Below, piece by piece: positions 2,864-19,921 of a DNA stretch of 20,304 nt. The DNA comes from a virus. Within the stretch, counting starts at the first letter, position 1. Every line of letters begins with the position of its first letter. The translations under genes were made by a program, and so were the position numbers. Below the pieces are notes generated by a model, which saw nothing but the letters and a program-made list of their open reading frames with translations, had not been told where the DNA came from and searched no databases. The stretch lies in IMG/VR virus record IMGVR_UViG_3300004369_000197, positions 1 through 20,304 of that record. One strand, given 5' to 3'.

Positions 2864-3357
2864 TACTTACTCCAACTCCAGGCTTTGTGTTTAGGATACT
2901 TCATTCCCTTTCTGTCTATGAATTTTTCCGTAGGCAGAAGAGAAATACTGCCCCAATCCTCACTTTTTGGAATCTTATATAAGTTTCCCATACCACTATA
3001 CAAGTATCTATGTATAGAATTTTTGGGTACTGTTACACCTCTTCCACTATTTATCAGGCTTTTTGCAACTGCATCCCTGTAATCTGGATTTATGTAATGT
3101 AGATTCGATCCAAGGAATCCATCTTTTTGGAAATCAATAACAAATGCTAGAGGTTGTACATCCCAAAATTCATATTTTTCTGGAAACTTTGCTCCATATG
3201 AGAAAAATAATAAATCACCCACTGCAACTCCGCCAGTATCGCTTTCACTAATATCTGGTTCTTGTGCAGAAGCTAACTTAGATTCTAGAGAATTGATATA
3301 CCAGTCTCCACTCCTATTCTTTTTACCTGCTTCTTTTAGTATTTCTTCTGTTATCAT
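2863..3357 (-). CDS. conserved-looking phage protein of unknown function, 164 aa
   Basis: This gene lies between gp4 and gp48 and overlaps both (35 bases with gp4, one with gp48), so it is co-translated with head and baseplate completion genes. The N-terminal 25 residues are helical; the core has a hydrophobic, aromatic pattern GDLLFFSYGAKF, then WDVQPLAFVIDF and GSNLHYINP (about residues 47-95), and a basic C-terminus ending KHKAWSWSK. This Phe/Tyr/Trp pattern suggests a small beta-barrel-like fold and I associate it with conserved proteins in T4-like marine phages, but I cannot name a function. No catalytic motif or membrane segment is visible. A structural or assembly role is inferred only from position. 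Confidence 0.75.
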   Translation of the reverse strand: MITEEILKEAGKKNRSGDWYINSLESKLASAQEPDISESDTGGVAVGDLLFFSYGAKFPEKYEFWDVQPLAFVIDFQKDGFLGSNLHYINPDYRDAVAKSLINSGRGVTVPKNSIHRYLYSGMGNLYKIPKSEDWGSISLLPTEKFIDRKGMKYPKHKAWSWSK

Positions 3358-3796
3358 TTGAAATTCCTAGATCGTCTTCGGTCATGATCTTGAATTCATA
3401 ATTACGGTCAGCACAATATTCTTCTGCAGCTTTCCACTTTGCTTGATTTACCACCCAAGTCTCAACACTCTTTACCCAAGATTTTGTTTTTCTCTTGGGA
3501 TTTTTTTCAGGCATAACTAATTGTTTTTTTGGTTTGACTTCAATCACCATTGCTCTATTTTTTCCAGTGGAATCAACATACTTGATAAAGAAGTCTGGAA
3601 AATATCTATGATATTTGTTATCTAGTGGAGATTTGTATGGAATAAAGAACTCTTCAGACTGCCATTGATATACACTTTCATTCAGGTCACAATACTTCAT
3701 GAATTTTCTTTCCCACAAAGACCTATAAACAATGTTTGTGGGATCACCTTTGTACTTTCTTGGATACTCTGGTTGGTATTTTCCCTGATAAGACAT
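3323..3796 (-). CDS. 4: gp4-like head completion protein
   Basis: The product strongly resembles T4 gp4 (gp50/gp4), which acts with gp2 to complete the packaged head before tail joining. Shared text includes SYQGKYQPEYPRKYKG at the start, then GDPTNIVYRSLWERKFMKYCD, and a block with IPYKSPLD, HRYFPDFFIKY and VIEVKPKKQ. The PDF...EVKPKK arrangement looks like a PD-(D/E)XK nuclease-type core, as has been suggested for this family. I prefer the ATG at 3796 (157 aa) because T4 gp4 starts just before its SFQGKY motif; upstream in-frame ATGs at 3802 and 3814 would add two to six residues. The gene is divergent from gp54 and overlaps the next gene by 35 bases. Confidence 0.9.
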   Translation of the reverse strand: MSYQGKYQPEYPRKYKGDPTNIVYRSLWERKFMKYCDLNESVYQWQSEEFFIPYKSPLDNKYHRYFPDFFIKYVDSTGKNRAMVIEVKPKKQLVMPEKNPKRKTKSWVKSVETWVVNQAKWKAAEEYCADRNYEFKIMTEDDLGISNDNRRNTKRSR

Positions 3797-3819
3797 ATAC
3801 ATAGTATAAAGCATTAAAA

Positions 3820-14828: not shown

Positions 14829-16444
14829 TGCCAAAGGCGGATCCCCAAAAGATTTCAAAAAGACTCAGAGATCAAGCAAAAGATCAAGATCGTCAGAGAG
14901 AACAGTTGTTAGAACAATTGACTATCACTGATGCCATCATCGATGAGTATGATGAATTGATCTTGAAGTTGGACGGATTGAACCCAGAACTTATATCTGA
15001 GATCAATGTAAAGATCAAAGCAGTTGCTGATGCATATAAGGCAAGAATTTCTGCTGGTTGTAGAAACGATCTTGCATGGGTTGCTGTACAAGAAAATAGT
15101 TTATGGACAAGAATTAGCGGGATTTCAGAGAGAGTTACAGTAACAACCTATGAATGTAAGAAGGATCCTGCTCAACGAGTTCAACTTAATAATTATGGTA
15201 TTAAGTATTACAGACACCCAAAAAATAGAGAATATGGTGCGGGTGTAGTTGATGAGATTCAAGATGCAAGTATTGATAAACTATCATCAGTCCTAGTTTT
15301 ATTTGGTGATCTTGCTGGTAGTTATGCTGGTGTTGTTGCAGTGGGAGACTATATTACTGACGATCTGGAAGAACCACAGGTTTGGTCTACTGGAAACTTA
15401 CCTAGAGTTGTTAGTGTGGGGACGGCGGATTACCCAGGAGAGCAGAGCACAGTAAGTGGATTCTGTACTGCTGGTGTGTCCAGACTGTATGGAGATGGTG
15501 TCGTTGGTGTATTATCAGACTTCAACGTAGGTGATTATGTTATCGCTGAGGGATATTTCCCACTGAATACTACTATTACTGGATTTGGAGAAGCTGAATA
15601 CCAACAAGACTTTATTGATGATGTTGGTGTAACAACTACAATCACCACTTCAATTTTCTATGCAGATTTGAGTAATGTTGCCATTGGAGAAACAAACAAC
15701 CATGATTTTACTGTTGGCATTGTTTCCTCATACAATGCACTATTCTTAAGTGCATCTACGGATGTTGGTGCTGCCCGTAGTTCGTTCTTGATTGTCAGAC
15801 CACCAGATGCTGGAGATTTGGACTTTGAGGTAACAAAGAATCCTATTGATCCTGTTGAAATTGGTATTGTTAAAGGAAAGAAAACTGGTAAAGGACACGG
15901 GGTTCAACTAATTAATAATGGTGATCCTGACGTGGTTAAAAACTGGCACTCAGTAAGAGAAGATCCAGAACCACCAGTTGGCGCTGGATATGAAGAGTAT
16001 TGGACAGGAAACTTTGCATGGCCTACATTAGAAACAACAACAATTACTGGTTATGAAATGGAAGGTGGTGATCCTATCTTTTCTTCATTTATTAATTATG
16101 CTACCGAAGGTCAGAGGGTTACAATCAGTGTCGGCACTATCACTCCACAATCAAAGATTGGTACTACTTCAGTAAGTCCAACCAATCCAGGTGGTAGTGG
16201 ATGTGGTGCATTAGATTCGGCAATATCTACTGCAGAATCTCAAATGAATTCAAAGATCGCAGAGAACACTCCAAAGATAAATCATAATCTTGGAGGTACA
16301 CAAGCTCTTAGGAATTTAAGAGATGAAGAGGAAACTCAGGCCTGGGGATATCTACAGGGTATTGCATACATCAACGATAAAAAGAAGAAGCTAAATAATA
16401 GTGCTACAGCAATTAGTGATTTTAATTGGAGTACTATTGAATGA
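14828..16444 (+). CDS. large structural protein with coiled-coil ends, function unknown
   Basis: The 538-aa product has a charged coiled-coil N-terminus (about residues 5-75; KRLRDQAKDQDRQREQLLEQ), a long beta-rich central part with many Gly/Val/Thr residues (about 80-440, for example GVVGVLSDFNVGDYVIAEGY), and a helical C-terminus (about 460-538) with GCGALDSAISTAESQM and EEETQAWGYLQGIA. This layout is that of an elongated virion or baseplate-associated trimer rather than an enzyme. I do not recognise a named family. It overlaps the preceding gene by one base and the following oxygenase by four, and is the last gene of the structural run. Confidence 0.65.
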   Translation: MPKADPQKISKRLRDQAKDQDRQREQLLEQLTITDAIIDEYDELILKLDGLNPELISEINVKIKAVADAYKARISAGCRNDLAWVAVQENSLWTRISGISERVTVTTYECKKDPAQRVQLNNYGIKYYRHPKNREYGAGVVDEIQDASIDKLSSVLVLFGDLAGSYAGVVAVGDYITDDLEEPQVWSTGNLPRVVSVGTADYPGEQSTVSGFCTAGVSRLYGDGVVGVLSDFNVGDYVIAEGYFPLNTTITGFGEAEYQQDFIDDVGVTTTITTSIFYADLSNVAIGETNNHDFTVGIVSSYNALFLSASTDVGAARSSFLIVRPPDAGDLDFEVTKNPIDPVEIGIVKGKKTGKGHGVQLINNGDPDVVKNWHSVREDPEPPVGAGYEEYWTGNFAWPTLETTTITGYEMEGGDPIFSSFINYATEGQRVTISVGTITPQSKIGTTSVSPTNPGGSGCGALDSAISTAESQMNSKIAENTPKINHNLGGTQALRNLRDEEETQAWGYLQGIAYINDKKKKLNNSATAISDFNWSTIE

Positions 16445-17106
16445 TTGAAATTGATGCAAGTAAAGAATCTTTGGACTGGTCAAAGTATGACCTTGCCAAA
16501 GATGAAATCTTTGTTATTGATAATCTATTTCCATGGTGGTTTGTTGAACACCTAGACACAACACTACTTCATGGATTTGGGTGGCAGTATGGACTATGCA
16601 GTAGTCACAAAAAGAACGCAGACGGTACTTCAAACTTTGAGTATGATAAGGGTGCGGATGAAGAGTTTGAAGTTCCTTGTTTCAAACAATCAATTTATCC
16701 ACCAAGATCAGAATCTGCTTCAGATCCCAGTTATGGAATGATCTTCAAAGCAGTTATGTCCACTCTTCCATTTGAAGTAGAATTGGGAGAAATTTTGGTT
16801 AATGGTCAACAATACATCCACAACACTACAGTTCATCAAGACTGTAGTTGTGATAATGGAATTAGTTTCATTTACTATGTCAATAGGAACTGGAAAGATT
16901 CTTGGGGTGGAGCAACTAGAGTACAAACAGAAGATGGTTGGGTAGAAATATTGCCCAAACCAGGAAGAGTGTGCTTATTCAAGGGAAATATCCCACATCA
17001 CGGAATGCCGCCAAATGATAATTATCGTGGTCTTAGAGCAACACTAGTATATAAGACTATGAGAAAGATTCCTTTACCTGCAAATAAAAAAAGCACTATA
17101 TTATGA
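16441..17106 (+). CDS. 2OG-Fe(II) oxygenase (prolyl-hydroxylase-like), 221 aa
   Basis: This is a double-stranded beta-helix dioxygenase that uses Fe(II), O2 and 2-oxoglutarate. Iron ligands are readable: His132-x-Asp134 in TTVHQDCS, the distal His (His186 or His187) in NIPHHGMPP, and an Arg (Arg196 or Arg199 in YRGLRATLVYK) for 2-oxoglutarate. The hydrophobic strands ISFIYYVNRNW and GRVCLFKGN frame the site, and the SWGGATRV loop matches the family. Substrate is unknown; protein side-chain hydroxylation is plausible. It overlaps the previous gene by four bases and the next by four, so it is the first of a run of oxygenases with tiny genes. Such enzymes are very common in cyanophages. Confidence 0.88.
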   Translation: MIEIDASKESLDWSKYDLAKDEIFVIDNLFPWWFVEHLDTTLLHGFGWQYGLCSSHKKNADGTSNFEYDKGADEEFEVPCFKQSIYPPRSESASDPSYGMIFKAVMSTLPFEVELGEILVNGQQYIHNTTVHQDCSCDNGISFIYYVNRNWKDSWGGATRVQTEDGWVEILPKPGRVCLFKGNIPHHGMPPNDNYRGLRATLVYKTMRKIPLPANKKSTIL

Positions 17107-17618
17107 GAAAAGATCTTTTTAGTATTCCCATTTTCGAAGATAAAGTCGATCTAACAGTATTTAAATTTCCAGAAGAAGAACTTGAACCCACCTGGGACTC
17201 TGGAACACCAACAACATTCTCAAAGTCAGTTAAATTATCCGATGAGTCGTTAATACATCTGGGTGAAATAATTACAAGAAATCTTTCGTCATCCAATTTG
17301 ATGGGCAGTAATGCTCGAATAGGACATATGTGGAGAAATACTTATAGTGAAACGGACTATCAAGATGTACATATTCATCCACATTGTCAATGGAGTTTCA
17401 TCATTTACGAAACTATGAAATCCCAAACATCTTTTTTGAATCCATCAATTAAAGATATACAGAACCAACTTGGGACAAATGTGCTTGCCTTTCCTTTGGA
17501 TTACAAACCAAACCTAGGTCCTGGAGATATCATCATATTCCCATCGTTTTTGTTCCATTCTGTTAACAAAGGTAACGGCGGATCATCTATTTCTGGTAAT
17601 ATATACATGGAGTATTGA
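17103..17618 (+). CDS. putative 2OG-Fe(II) oxygenase (2OG-FeII_Oxy_5-like), 171 aa
   Basis: The N-terminus (DLFSIPIFEDKVDL) and two conserved blocks, QDVHIHPHCQWSFIIYE (residues 87-103) and GDIIIFPSFLFHSVNKG (about 141-157), match the PF13759-type oxygenase-like family. Metal-ligand candidates are His90, His92 and the distal His152; Asp88 lies just before the first His. The His-x-His in place of the usual His-x-Asp is a family feature, so enzymatic activity is less certain. It overlaps the previous gene by four bases. A clearly related copy is at 18725-19276, sharing the HIHP...QWSFIIYET text, which points to duplication. Substrate unknown. Confidence 0.78.
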   Translation: MRKDLFSIPIFEDKVDLTVFKFPEEELEPTWDSGTPTTFSKSVKLSDESLIHLGEIITRNLSSSNLMGSNARIGHMWRNTYSETDYQDVHIHPHCQWSFIIYETMKSQTSFLNPSIKDIQNQLGTNVLAFPLDYKPNLGPGDIIIFPSFLFHSVNKGNGGSSISGNIYMEY

Positions 17619-18143: not shown

Positions 18144-18270
18144 AAGAACTTTTGTAGACAAGAATGGCAATTCTTGGGAGTGGGAAGAGACTCCTGAAGT
18201 CATCAAAGCGATCGAGAAGATGAATGGTACTACTGTACTGCAACCACCGCCACGCAAACCCAGCGATTGA
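18136..18270 (+). CDS. small conserved-looking cyanophage protein, 44 aa
   Basis: The ORF starts eight bases inside the previous gene (17949-18143). Its product reads MTKRTFVDKNGNSWEWEETP and ends in PPPRKPSD. The Trp-rich GNSWEWEE stretch is familiar from tiny cyanophage proteins. A strong SD precedes the ATG. The end of the ORF (from 18267) overlaps the -35 box of the downstream sigma70 promoter, so the coding sequence and the promoter share bases. No function can be assigned. Confidence 0.6.
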   Translation: MTKRTFVDKNGNSWEWEETPEVIKAIEKMNGTTVLQPPPRKPSD

Positions 18271-18295
18271 CAAGGAAGGGTCCATGCCCTATAAT
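18267..18295 (+). promoter_or_regulatory. perfect-consensus sigma70 promoter (TTGACA, 17 bp, TATAAT)
   Basis: TTGACA lies at 18267-18272 and TATAAT at 18290-18295 with the ideal 17-base spacer. Transcription would start at about 18302, 16 bases before the ATG of the 50-aa gene, and run on into tRNA-Ile, tRNA-Met and tRNA-Leu. Such boxes are expected of early promoters read by the host RNA polymerase. The -35 box overlaps the last codons of the preceding ORF. Confidence 0.85.
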
Positions 18296-18470: not shown

Positions 18471-18476
18471 CTTCTG

Positions 18477-18546
18477 GGACTGTCGCCTAATGGTTAAGGC
18501 CCTCTGCTTATAACGGAGTGAATCGGGTTCAATTCCCGACAGTCCT
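18477..18546 (+). tRNA. tRNA-Ile(UAU)
   Basis: Acceptor stem GGACTGT (18477-18483) pairs with ACAGTCC (18539-18545). The anticodon stem CTCTG/CGGAG encloses loop CTTATAA with anticodon UAU, which reads AUA. The T arm is TCGGG-TTCAATT-CCCGA. D arm GCC...GGC. CCA is not encoded. It is an unusual isoacceptor because many bacteria decode AUA with a modified CAU tRNA. Confidence 0.88.
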
Positions 18547-18549
18547 ATC

Positions 18550-18622
18550 GCTCCTTTAGCAATCTGGTGAATGCAGCGAACTCATAATTCGCCTGAGGCG
18601 TGTTCGATCCACGCAAGGAGCA
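18550..18622 (+). tRNA. tRNA-Met(CAU)
   Basis: Acceptor GCTCCTT/AAGGAGC, anticodon stem GCGAA/TTCGC with loop CTCATAA (anticodon CAU), T arm GCGTG-TTCGATC-CACGC. G1-C72 is a normal pair, so it is not a formyl-methionine initiator of the mismatched type. A lysidine-type Ile tRNA is possible but less needed because a UAU tRNA is encoded next to it. Confidence 0.85.
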
Positions 18623-18626
18623 CCTC

Positions 18627-18710
18627 GGGACGGTGGTGGAATTGGTATACACAACAGACTTAAAATCTGTCGGGCGTTAGCCCTTGAGGGTTCAAGTCCC
18701 TCTCGTCCTA
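18627..18710 (+). tRNA. tRNA-Leu(UAA)
   Basis: Class II tRNA with a long variable arm (CGGGC-GTTA-GCCC). Anticodon stem ACAGA/TCTGT encloses CTTAAAA, anticodon UAA, reading UUA. T arm GAGGG-TTCAAGT-CCCTC. The acceptor GGGACGG/TCGTCCT has G-U pairs at both ends. No CCA encoded. Confidence 0.88.
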
Positions 18711-18724
18711 TCACAAAAAAAATC

Positions 18725-19276
18725 ATGAAAAATCAAGTTGATTTATTTTCAGTTCCTTTCTTTATTGATGACGTTGATCTGGAAAAGATTCAATTAATTG
18801 ATGAGGAACAGAGACCAACCTTTCGTAGTGGATTGAAAACTAGCATACGTTGCAATAGACAGATCAGTTCCGATACAATTGCATATCTTTCTGAAATTGT
18901 TTCACGAAATATTGATACATTAGGAATTAGATATGGTAGTGCTGTAATTGGAGAACTTTGGAGGAATACCTACACAAAATCCGATTTTCAAGATCCACAC
19001 ATTCATCCATTTTCACAATGGAGTTTTATTATTTACGAAACAGTAAATCAATCAAAAACTGTATTTTTAAATCCATACAGGTTTCGTGTTCAGACACAGA
19101 TGTCTATGTATGATGATTACTTTCGTGAGGACTGGGTGCCACAACTAAAACCAGGACAAATCATCATTTTTCCCTCCTTTATAGAACATTATGTTCTCAC
19201 TGGTAATGAAGGATCAACGGTTGCCGGCAACGTATTTCTAAGTCCCATAAATATTGACGATCAGGATCAGTCCTGA
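18725..19276 (+). CDS. putative 2OG-Fe(II) oxygenase, paralogue of the gene at 17103
   Basis: The 183-aa product shares with the 17103 gene the N-terminal DLFSVPFFIDDVDLE, the ELWRNTYTKSDFQD block, the QWSFIIYET block and GQIIIFPSF, so they are clear paralogues. Ligand candidates are His92, His94 and the distal His155 in FIEHYVLTG; Asp90 stands two before His92. The HIHP arrangement is the same as in the other copy. It lies between tRNA-Leu and tRNA-Thr, and the -35 box of the following promoter is in its last codons. A poly-A stretch precedes the ATG and no SD is clear. Substrate unknown. Confidence 0.78.
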   Translation: MKNQVDLFSVPFFIDDVDLEKIQLIDEEQRPTFRSGLKTSIRCNRQISSDTIAYLSEIVSRNIDTLGIRYGSAVIGELWRNTYTKSDFQDPHIHPFSQWSFIIYETVNQSKTVFLNPYRFRVQTQMSMYDDYFREDWVPQLKPGQIIIFPSFIEHYVLTGNEGSTVAGNVFLSPINIDDQDQS

Positions 19277-19282
19277 TATAAT
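19254..19282 (+). promoter_or_regulatory. near-consensus sigma70 promoter (TTGACG, 17 bp, TATAAT)
   Basis: TTGACG at 19254-19259 and TATAAT at 19277-19282 are 17 bases apart; one base differs from the perfect consensus. Transcription would start at about 19289, three bases before tRNA-Thr, and would continue into the tmRNA. The -35 box lies inside the coding end of the preceding oxygenase gene. This fits host-polymerase early expression of the RNA cluster. Confidence 0.8.
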
Positions 19283-19291
19283 ATATTCTCT

Positions 19292-19365
19292 GCCTCCGTA
19301 GCTCAGCTGGATAGAGCAACGGTTTTGTAAACCGTAGGTCGTCGGTTCAAGTCCGACCGTGGGCT
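19292..19365 (+). tRNA. tRNA-Thr(UGU)
   Basis: Anticodon stem ACGGT/ACCGT encloses loop TTTGTAA, anticodon UGU, reading ACA. T arm GTCGG-TTCAAGT-CCGAC. The acceptor GCCTCCG pairs with CGTGGGC except for a C5:U68 mismatch next to a U4:G69 wobble. The discriminator is T and no CCA is encoded. The rest of the tRNA is canonical. Confidence 0.85.
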
Positions 19366-19381
19366 TTCCCCTTCTGGGGAA
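19366..19381 (+). other. perfect hairpin between tRNA-Thr and the tmRNA acceptor segment
   Basis: TTCCCC-TTCT-GGGGAA forms a six-base-pair stem with a four-base loop, directly following the tRNA-Thr discriminator. There is no U-tract behind it, so it is not a typical terminator. It may mark RNA processing or belong to the 5' end of the tmRNA acceptor piece. Confidence 0.5.
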
Positions 19382-19660
19382 TAGGTGGTTCCACCGATAT
19401 TTCGGACAGGGGTTCGACTCCCCTTATCTCCACTTCACGGGGATACAATGGTTTCGACGGGGTGTTAGGAGGATCACTGAAACCTGCTTGGATAAGCAAC
19501 AAATAGATGCCAAAAACATCGCTCCTGCGAACAAGATTGTTCGCTTCTCCCGTCAAGCAGCCCCTGTTGCTGCCTGACCCATATACGGAGATCGGGGTTA
19601 AGTTAGCCTTGTTACCCAAATAACTCTTTGAGGGTGAAATGCCCTCTACATAAAGTATAT
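19382..19660 (+). ncRNA. ssrA: circularly permuted (two-piece type) tmRNA
   Basis: The tRNA-like 3' half comes first: ATTTCGGACAGGGGTTCGACT text with T arm AGGGG-TTCGACT-CCCCT (19408-19424) and acceptor strand TATCTCC (19425-19431) plus discriminator A. Only six bases later the 5' half begins, GGGGATACAATGGTTTCGACGG (19439 onward), the hallmark tmRNA start. GGGGATA pairs with TATCTCC over seven bases and includes a G3-U70 pair, the alanine identity element. The tag ORF (19527-19577) follows. This order is the one described for the two-piece tmRNA of alpha-cyanobacteria. The outer ends are approximate: the hairpin at 19366-19381 could belong to the acceptor piece, and the coding piece may end near 19646-19660, after the hairpin GAGGG/CCCTC. 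Confidence 0.85.
19527..19577 (+). other. tmRNA proteolysis tag reading frame
   Basis: The resume codon is likely GCG, and the frame encodes ANKIVRFSRQAAPVAA then TGA. The C-terminal AAPVAA is like cyanobacterial tags, whose hydrophobic end marks proteins for ClpXP-type proteolysis. The frame could be read further upstream as a longer ORF, but that is a by-product of the RNA gene. Confidence 0.8.
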
Positions 19661-19848: not shown

Positions 19849-19921
19849 GGGGAATTAGCTCAGTTGGTAGAGCGCCTGCTTTGCAAGCAGGATGTCAGGA
19901 GTTCGAGTCTCCTATTCTCCA
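19849..19921 (+). tRNA. tRNA-Ala(UGC)
   Basis: Acceptor GGGGAAT/ATTCTCC with the G3-U70 pair required by alanyl-tRNA synthetase; anticodon stem CCTGC/GCAGG with loop TTTGCAA, anticodon UGC (reads GCA). T arm AGGAG-TTCGAGT-CTCCT. No CCA encoded. Its acceptor stem resembles that of the tmRNA, with which it shares the first five base pairs. Confidence 0.9.

Follow-up and report, generated by a model that had tools for sequence, protein, structure and literature searches.

A Circularly Permuted, Cyanobacterial-Type tmRNA in a T4-like Cyanophage Fragment and Its Phage Relatives

The tmRNA Locus

The window, i.e., the whole stretch of DNA that was analysed, is a metagenomic virus record of 20,304 bases. 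It carries T4-like structural genes (a gp53-like baseplate wedge, T4_tail_cap, tail tube, T4_baseplate and a tail protein), a weak gp5-like match and a DNA end protector. At positions 19366-19650 (+) of this T4-like cyanophage fragment lies a complete circularly permuted tmRNA of the cyanobacterial type. The tmRNA and its neighbours comprise the following features:

19254..19282 (+), predicted sigma-70-type promoter TTGACG-17-TATAAT with TG before the -10 element (11/12 consensus)
19292..19365 (+), tRNA-Thr(UGU), abutting the tmRNA (ARAGORN; 74/74 identical in the contigs L213/L133)
19366..19432 (+), tmRNA acceptor piece (3' tRNA-like half): long-helix strand, T arm, acceptor strand and discriminator (sequence, Rfam)
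19366..19381 (+), 5' hairpin of the acceptor piece, UUCCCC-UUCU-GGGGAA (Rfam alignment, MFE fold)
19408-19424 (+), T arm AGGGG-TTCGACT-CCCCT (sequence)
19425-19431 (+), 3' acceptor strand TATCTCC (sequence)
19432 (+), discriminator A, end of the 3' tRNA half (sequence)
19433-19438 (+), intervening segment CTTCAC, 6 nt (sequence)
19439..19650 (+), tmRNA coding piece, starting at G19439, 3' end approximate (sequence, Rfam)
19439-19445 (+), 5' acceptor strand GGGGATA (sequence)
19527..19577 (+), tag frame ANKIVRFSRQAAPVAA plus TGA, with a host-type VAA end and an RNA hairpin over the degron codons
19671..19847 (+), 58-aa ORF outside the tmRNA, phrog_2818 (PHROG match, E 1.5e-26)
19849..19921 (+), tRNA-Ala(UGC), closing the tRNA-Thr/tRNA-Ala slot (ARAGORN, cmscan)

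A cmscan search with Rfam matched RF01851 cyano_tmRNA at 19349-19646 (+) over model positions 1-288 of 288, with 190.4 bits (gathering score 70 bits) and an E-value of 6.2e-54 that excludes a chance match. The same region also matched RF04321 tmRNA_permuted (108.2 bits), and ARAGORN independently called a permuted tmRNA at this locus. Since the 5' end of the RF01851 match runs into tRNA-Thr, the tmRNA proper is taken to begin at about 19366. A sequence-only reading of the window had described a permuted tmRNA of the two-piece, alpha-cyanobacterial kind that starts at 19366, with the 3' half upstream of the 5' half across a six-base gap and with a G3-U70 pair. The full-length RF01851 match and the ARAGORN call agree on the kind, the overlap with tRNA-Thr on the start and CTTCAC on the gap, and the covariance-model check proposed at the time gave a score far above the cut-off rather than a poor one.

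The coding piece, which from G19439 reads GGGGATACAATGGTTTCGACGG, contains the 5' acceptor strand, the TTTCGAC loop, a long-helix strand, the tag frame and downstream helices. The acceptor stem is paired at 7/7 positions and includes the G3-U70 pair as claimed; CCA is not encoded after A19432 in the window sequence. The minimum free energy of the whole tmRNA stretch is only moderately better than that of shuffles (z -2.15), a modest gain that may be expected of a pseudoknotted RNA.

The tag given in the earlier reading was likewise recovered, intact at 19527-19577, with both an Ala resume codon and an Ala-Ala end. It terminates in QAAPVAA, the same ending class as that of complete host tags, and a rewritten degron, meaning an end unlike the host-type APVAA, was not found in this tag. 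A longer tag proposed by ARAGORN (AKNIAP...) was rejected as the product of a mis-set resume codon, since in the alignment the ANNIV/ANKIV start of hosts and phages falls on GCG at 19527.

Genomic Context and Predicted Transcription

The tmRNA is embedded in a tRNA cluster with the order tRNA-Ile, tRNA-Met and tRNA-Leu (18475-18710), a 2OG-Fe(II) oxygenase gene (18725-19276), tRNA-Thr, tmRNA, the 58-aa ORF and tRNA-Ala. The promoter at 19254-19282 ends ten bases upstream of tRNA-Thr, and the predicted transcription start is at about 19289; tRNA-Thr and the tmRNA follow directly and are likely carried on one transcript; the 58-aa ORF, kept in L213 (149/177 nt), possibly belongs to this transcript as well. 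The pattern TTGACN-N16-18-TATAAT occurs twice in the window versus 0.14 times expected from shuffling, and the promoter site is identical in L133, with variants in L215, L238 and L214. The promoter match suggests transcription by the host polymerase, perhaps early in infection. A search for a terminator-like site 3' of the tmRNA in the window found none.

Some further features of the window are worth recording. The sequence TTGACA-17-TATAAT at 18267-18295, upstream of the tRNA-Ile/Met/Leu cluster, matches the sigma-70 consensus perfectly. Three 2OG-Fe(II) oxygenase-like genes (16441-17106, 17103-17618 and 18725-19276, all +) are clustered 5' of the tmRNA, and a TnsA-like endonuclease domain (PF08722) at 3323-3814 (-) lies among the structural genes, where it adjoins the DNA end protector.

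S-RIM8 and S-RIM32 possess a tRNA-Thr and a tRNA-Ala nearly the same as those of the window (97-98%), and the tRNA-Thr at 19292-19365 (+) has a C-U mismatch in the acceptor stem that is also present in both. In S-RIM8 a locus tag is skipped between the two tRNAs, which suggested a tmRNA at this place; this candidate was rejected for both phages, as the interval instead holds a degenerate tRNA-like sequence, its anticodon unusual, together with a shared conserved stretch (L343:2576-2903 in S-RIM8, L342:2578-2787 in S-RIM32). The tRNA-Thr/tRNA-Ala interval resembles an exchange slot flanked by tRNA genes.

Phage Relatives and Known Phage tmRNAs

Homologues of the tmRNA were found by blastn in the Synechococcus phages Sf-FS3, S-CAM1, S-CAM3, S-SSM7/S-SSM6a and S-CRM01, and also in AG-345-P14, all of which, like the window, present a cyanobacterial-type permuted tmRNA in T4-like cyanophages. 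Sf-FS3, S-CAM1, AG-345-P14, S-SSM7 and S-CRM01 score above the RF01851 cut-off in cmscan, and the assignment of S-CAM3 is based on similarity and tmRNA anatomy. The tmRNA of Sf-FS3 directly follows tRNA-Thr, as in the window, and precedes a tRNA-Asn/tRNA-Ala pair; in S-SSM7, too, the position resembles that in the window. The records of these phages, as viewed, contain no tmRNA feature, and some cyanophage records have a hypothetical CDS annotated over the tmRNA. In S-CAM1 a wcaG RNA motif (RF01761, 83.5 bits) was observed downstream of the tmRNA region (L124:5566-5662).

A wider set was collected from virus contigs. A tight tmRNA pattern retrieved one virus contig only and a looser one six of mixed type; the useful set came from a tag pattern, which forces ANNIV and FSR and leaves the degron part unconstrained. 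Because of this, conservation of ANNIV and FSR was not used as evidence for selection. The resulting phage set comprises 65 distinct sequences, after removal of duplicates and one beta-type sequence (L128); two standard-type sequences (L129 and L131) were excluded as well. ARAGORN also called "standard" tmRNAs with the tag APDLKSVD... in L123, L183 and other contigs; these calls overlap tRNAs and were dismissed as false.

The window tmRNA shares with the RF01851 family of Prochlorococcus and marine Synechococcus the permuted order, G3-U70, the TTTCGAC loop, a short intervening segment, the tag start ANKIV/ANNIV and the end APVAA. The spacer of 6 nt also falls within the host range (5-29 nt, most often 6). 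Host cyano_tmRNAs reach 295-310 bits against the Rfam model; the window tmRNA, by contrast, scores 190, about 110 lower, and it sits in a phage tRNA cluster. Its acceptor stem GGGGATA/TATCTCC is absent from 120 host loci, where GGGGTTG or GGGGCTG occurs instead.

The kind of gene is already known, and the window tmRNA is not unprecedented, as several sequenced cyanophages carry homologues. To our knowledge, the tmRNAs of the Bxz1 group, Wildcat and Bacillus phage G are not of the cyanobacterial permuted type. Like the window, these mycobacteriophages (Bxz1 group and Wildcat) and Bacillus phage G encode a tmRNA, and phage DS6A has a tRNA-like domain only (PMC4131195). A report from 2022 describes two-piece tmRNAs of marine phages, including a cyanobacterial branch (its Figure 5). 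It counted 53 two-piece tmRNAs, of which 50 were marine or aquatic, in 18,146 phage genomes (PMC9004378). The methylophage Melnitz and pelagiphages treated there carry a two-piece ssrA, and hence, like the window, exemplify a phage-encoded permuted tmRNA in marine T4-like phages. Unlike the window, however, their ssrA is of the alphaproteobacterial type and lies under a glutamine riboswitch, and a cmscan search with Rfam found no riboswitch in the window. A further study lists 79 phage tmRNAs (PMC11915505).

Structural Constraint

The patterns used for collecting sequences did not require pairing. Nevertheless, the acceptor stem is paired 7/7 in 65/65 phages, with G1-C72, G2-C71 and G3-U70 invariant and with both-side changes in 3 pairs, and the 5 pairs of the T stem are formed in 65/65 phages, with both-side changes in 4 of them. 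Shuffles, in which the 3' letters are dealt out anew and relatedness is not accounted for, reach at most 96.0% for the acceptor stem and 93.5% for the T stem. The long helix connecting the two pieces is 91% paired over its first eight pairs, where shuffles do not exceed 84%, and its outermost three pairs show no advantage over shuffles. Between the window and L133 three acceptor pairs differ, and all are compensated (GGGGATA/TATCTCC versus GGGGTCG/CGACTCC). The hairpin at 19366-19381 changes its sequence in close relatives while keeping its pairing; the phage set as a whole is poorly aligned there. The unbroken, compensated pairing and the near-consensus promoter support a function of the phage tmRNAs. 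Phages that encode a ribosome-rescue RNA presumably have some need for it, and constraint is visible on its tRNA-like part.

Origin of the Phage tmRNAs

In an unrooted tree with 65 phage rows, 115 host rows and a few long phage branches, a single branch (98/82) splits all phage from all host tmRNAs, and the window groups with L133 as its sister (100/90) on the phage side. This phage contig is the nearest relative of the window (230/253 aligned positions, 91%), whereas the nearest host matches at 193/234 aligned positions, which corresponds to a divergence of about 18%. The tree and this divergence rule out a recent capture from a host lineage like those sampled. The proposal that the tmRNA was taken from an alpha-cyanobacterial host therefore holds at most for an old event. 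The cyanobacterial-type tmRNAs of cyanophages form a phage lineage of their own on this tree, which, being unrooted and long-branched on the phage side, may also comprise several old captures from unsampled hosts.

Tag Ends in Phages and Hosts

The C-terminal Ala-Ala of the tag is what ClpX reads. Of 114 distinct host rows, 113 have a tag that terminates in VAA or IAA, and the exception (L119) is cut by the end of its stretch. Ala-Ala ends occur in 23/64 distinct phage sequences, and one further phage row (ending TSE) is likewise cut off; about 40 of the 63 complete phage tags lack Ala-Ala, versus 0/113 in the hosts (Fisher p 1e-22, relatedness ignored). The other phage tags mostly end in ATA, VTA, VAV, ALV, AAL, VPA or VVA, with -LVTA, -LATA, -TALV, -AVAV and -VAAL among the ends and with L126, L123, L216, L002 and L127 as examples of Ala-Ala loss. 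Following ANNIV/ANNVV, the tags of the isolates and AG-345-P14 named above run into -RELATA (Sf-FS3), -DELVTA (S-SSM7), -SLVAAL (S-CRM01), -STVAA or -RQLATA. The host-type QAAPVAA of the window is also kept by L133, L215 and L238.

On a tree built without the degron columns the Ala-Ala state changes at least 8 times. The pooled pairwise pN/pS of the degron, computed from pairs that are not independent, is 0.62 in phages versus 0.07 in hosts. The tag frames are intact across the phages, and a hairpin over the degron codons, formed by other sequences, is predicted in nearly all of them. Tentatively, and with somewhat less than even odds, these patterns may reflect an old cyanophage tmRNA lineage in which rescue was conserved and the proteolysis signal freed or retuned, so that the fold and the ANNIV start were held and Ala-Ala was repeatedly replaced. 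If true, the window and its nearest relatives would represent the least altered form, and during infection tagging would move away from host degrons towards phage degrons. The conserved fold versus the changing degron lets experiments ask which of rescue, tagging and altered tagging the phages want, and the homologues in the cultivable isolates S-SSM7, S-CAM1 and Sf-FS3 are open to experiment. The degron contrast was not found in the openly licensed papers searched, supplements aside, and may be on record elsewhere.

Functional Interpretation and Alternatives

We consider it probable (roughly 0.8) that the region encodes a functional two-piece tmRNA of a phage lineage, i.e., a ribosome-rescue RNA. 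By sequence and by comparison, the anatomy is complete, the structure constrained, the frame intact, the promoter matched and SmpB not found in related phages; transcription, processing, charging, tagging and benefit are inferred. The Rfam score below those of the hosts and the modest gain in folding energy over shuffles count against this reading. Host RNA polymerase would read tRNA-Thr and the tmRNA from the promoter at 19254-19282, and host RNase P and tRNA 3'-end enzymes would excise the acceptor and coding pieces and discard CTTCAC. The acceptor piece would receive CCA, the acceptor stem and the long helix would keep the two pieces joined, and host alanyl-tRNA synthetase would charge the phage tmRNA via G3-U70. 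Together with host SmpB and EF-Tu, the tmRNA would then enter ribosomes stalled on broken mRNAs, add ANKIVRFSRQAAPVAA and free them. The most likely benefit would be additional capacity for ribosome rescue at the time when infection brings degradation of host mRNA. SmpB is presumed to come from the host because none was found in 9 related phage records (including five complete isolate genomes), in a search whose control was positive in 10/14 genomes; as the window is a 20-kb fragment, a phage SmpB may lie elsewhere in its genome.

The selected role could instead be altered tagging, with rescue kept and the degron retuned such that tagged proteins undergo less degradation or reach it through a different route. 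The scarcity of Ala-Ala ends in phage tags, their repeated change on the tree, the pN/pS contrast and the hairpins kept over differing degron codons would fit this reading, yet relaxed constraint combined with turnover of the RNA hairpin could yield the same pattern, and the window and three relatives keep QAAPVAA; we regard it as unlikely. Accordingly, the earlier suggestion that the tmRNA alters the tagging of host proteins does not suit this copy, the degron of which is host-type, and is plausible for most of its phage relatives. Considerably less probable is a decoy or inhibitor that would occupy host SmpB or alanyl-tRNA synthetase and block host trans-translation, as proposed for phage DS6A. 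An RNA of the DS6A type does inhibit tmRNA in Escherichia coli (PMC4131195, PMC11915505), but in the window copy the resume codon, tag, stop and downstream helices are all intact, as are the frames across phages.

A decaying, functionless relic of host capture would account for a score below those of the hosts and for the sporadic presence of the gene, which is lacking between the same two tRNAs in S-RIM8 and S-RIM32. This explanation is very improbable in the face of compensated pairing that is unbroken in 65 sequences, the invariant G3-U70, intact tags and a promoter retained in relatives. Least credible of all is a host chromosomal sequence or a chimeric contig, a concern raised by the metagenomic nature of the record. 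The designation as a virus record and the T4-like baseplate and tail genes that share these 20 kb with the tmRNA uphold the claim of a tmRNA in a phage genome, the gene order is the same in L213/L133 at 89-93% identity, and the tmRNA occupies a comparable position in the isolates Sf-FS3 and S-SSM7. Rescue by a functional phage tmRNA remains our preferred reading.

Nested tRNAs and Probable Two-Piece Processing

The spacer between the tmRNA halves is 4-9 nt long in most phages. In 11/66 distinct sequences it measures 81-89 nt and holds a whole tRNA; these correspond to fifteen phage loci (L136, L137, L138, L140, L180, L245, L255, L256, L265, L266, L271, L299, L306, L331 and L333), in which an intact tRNA-Asn(GTT) or tRNA-Tyr(GTA) is nested between the halves. 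A nested tRNA is also apparent by eye in L251 and L219. Because whole tRNAs lie between the halves in these relatives, both halves are probably cut by tRNA enzymes, and two-piece processing is thereby supported indirectly. Genes of this type constitute a natural construct for testing such processing. A nested tRNA-Ala in one nominally archaeal record was called unique (PMC11915505); the openly licensed papers searched, supplements aside, did not mention that nested tRNAs recur in cyanophages, which may be on record elsewhere. A spacer unlike all others occurs in the tmRNA of L318 (5774-6336, -), where 220 bases full of short repeats (GTTAGTATTCA...TAATACTC) separate the two halves.
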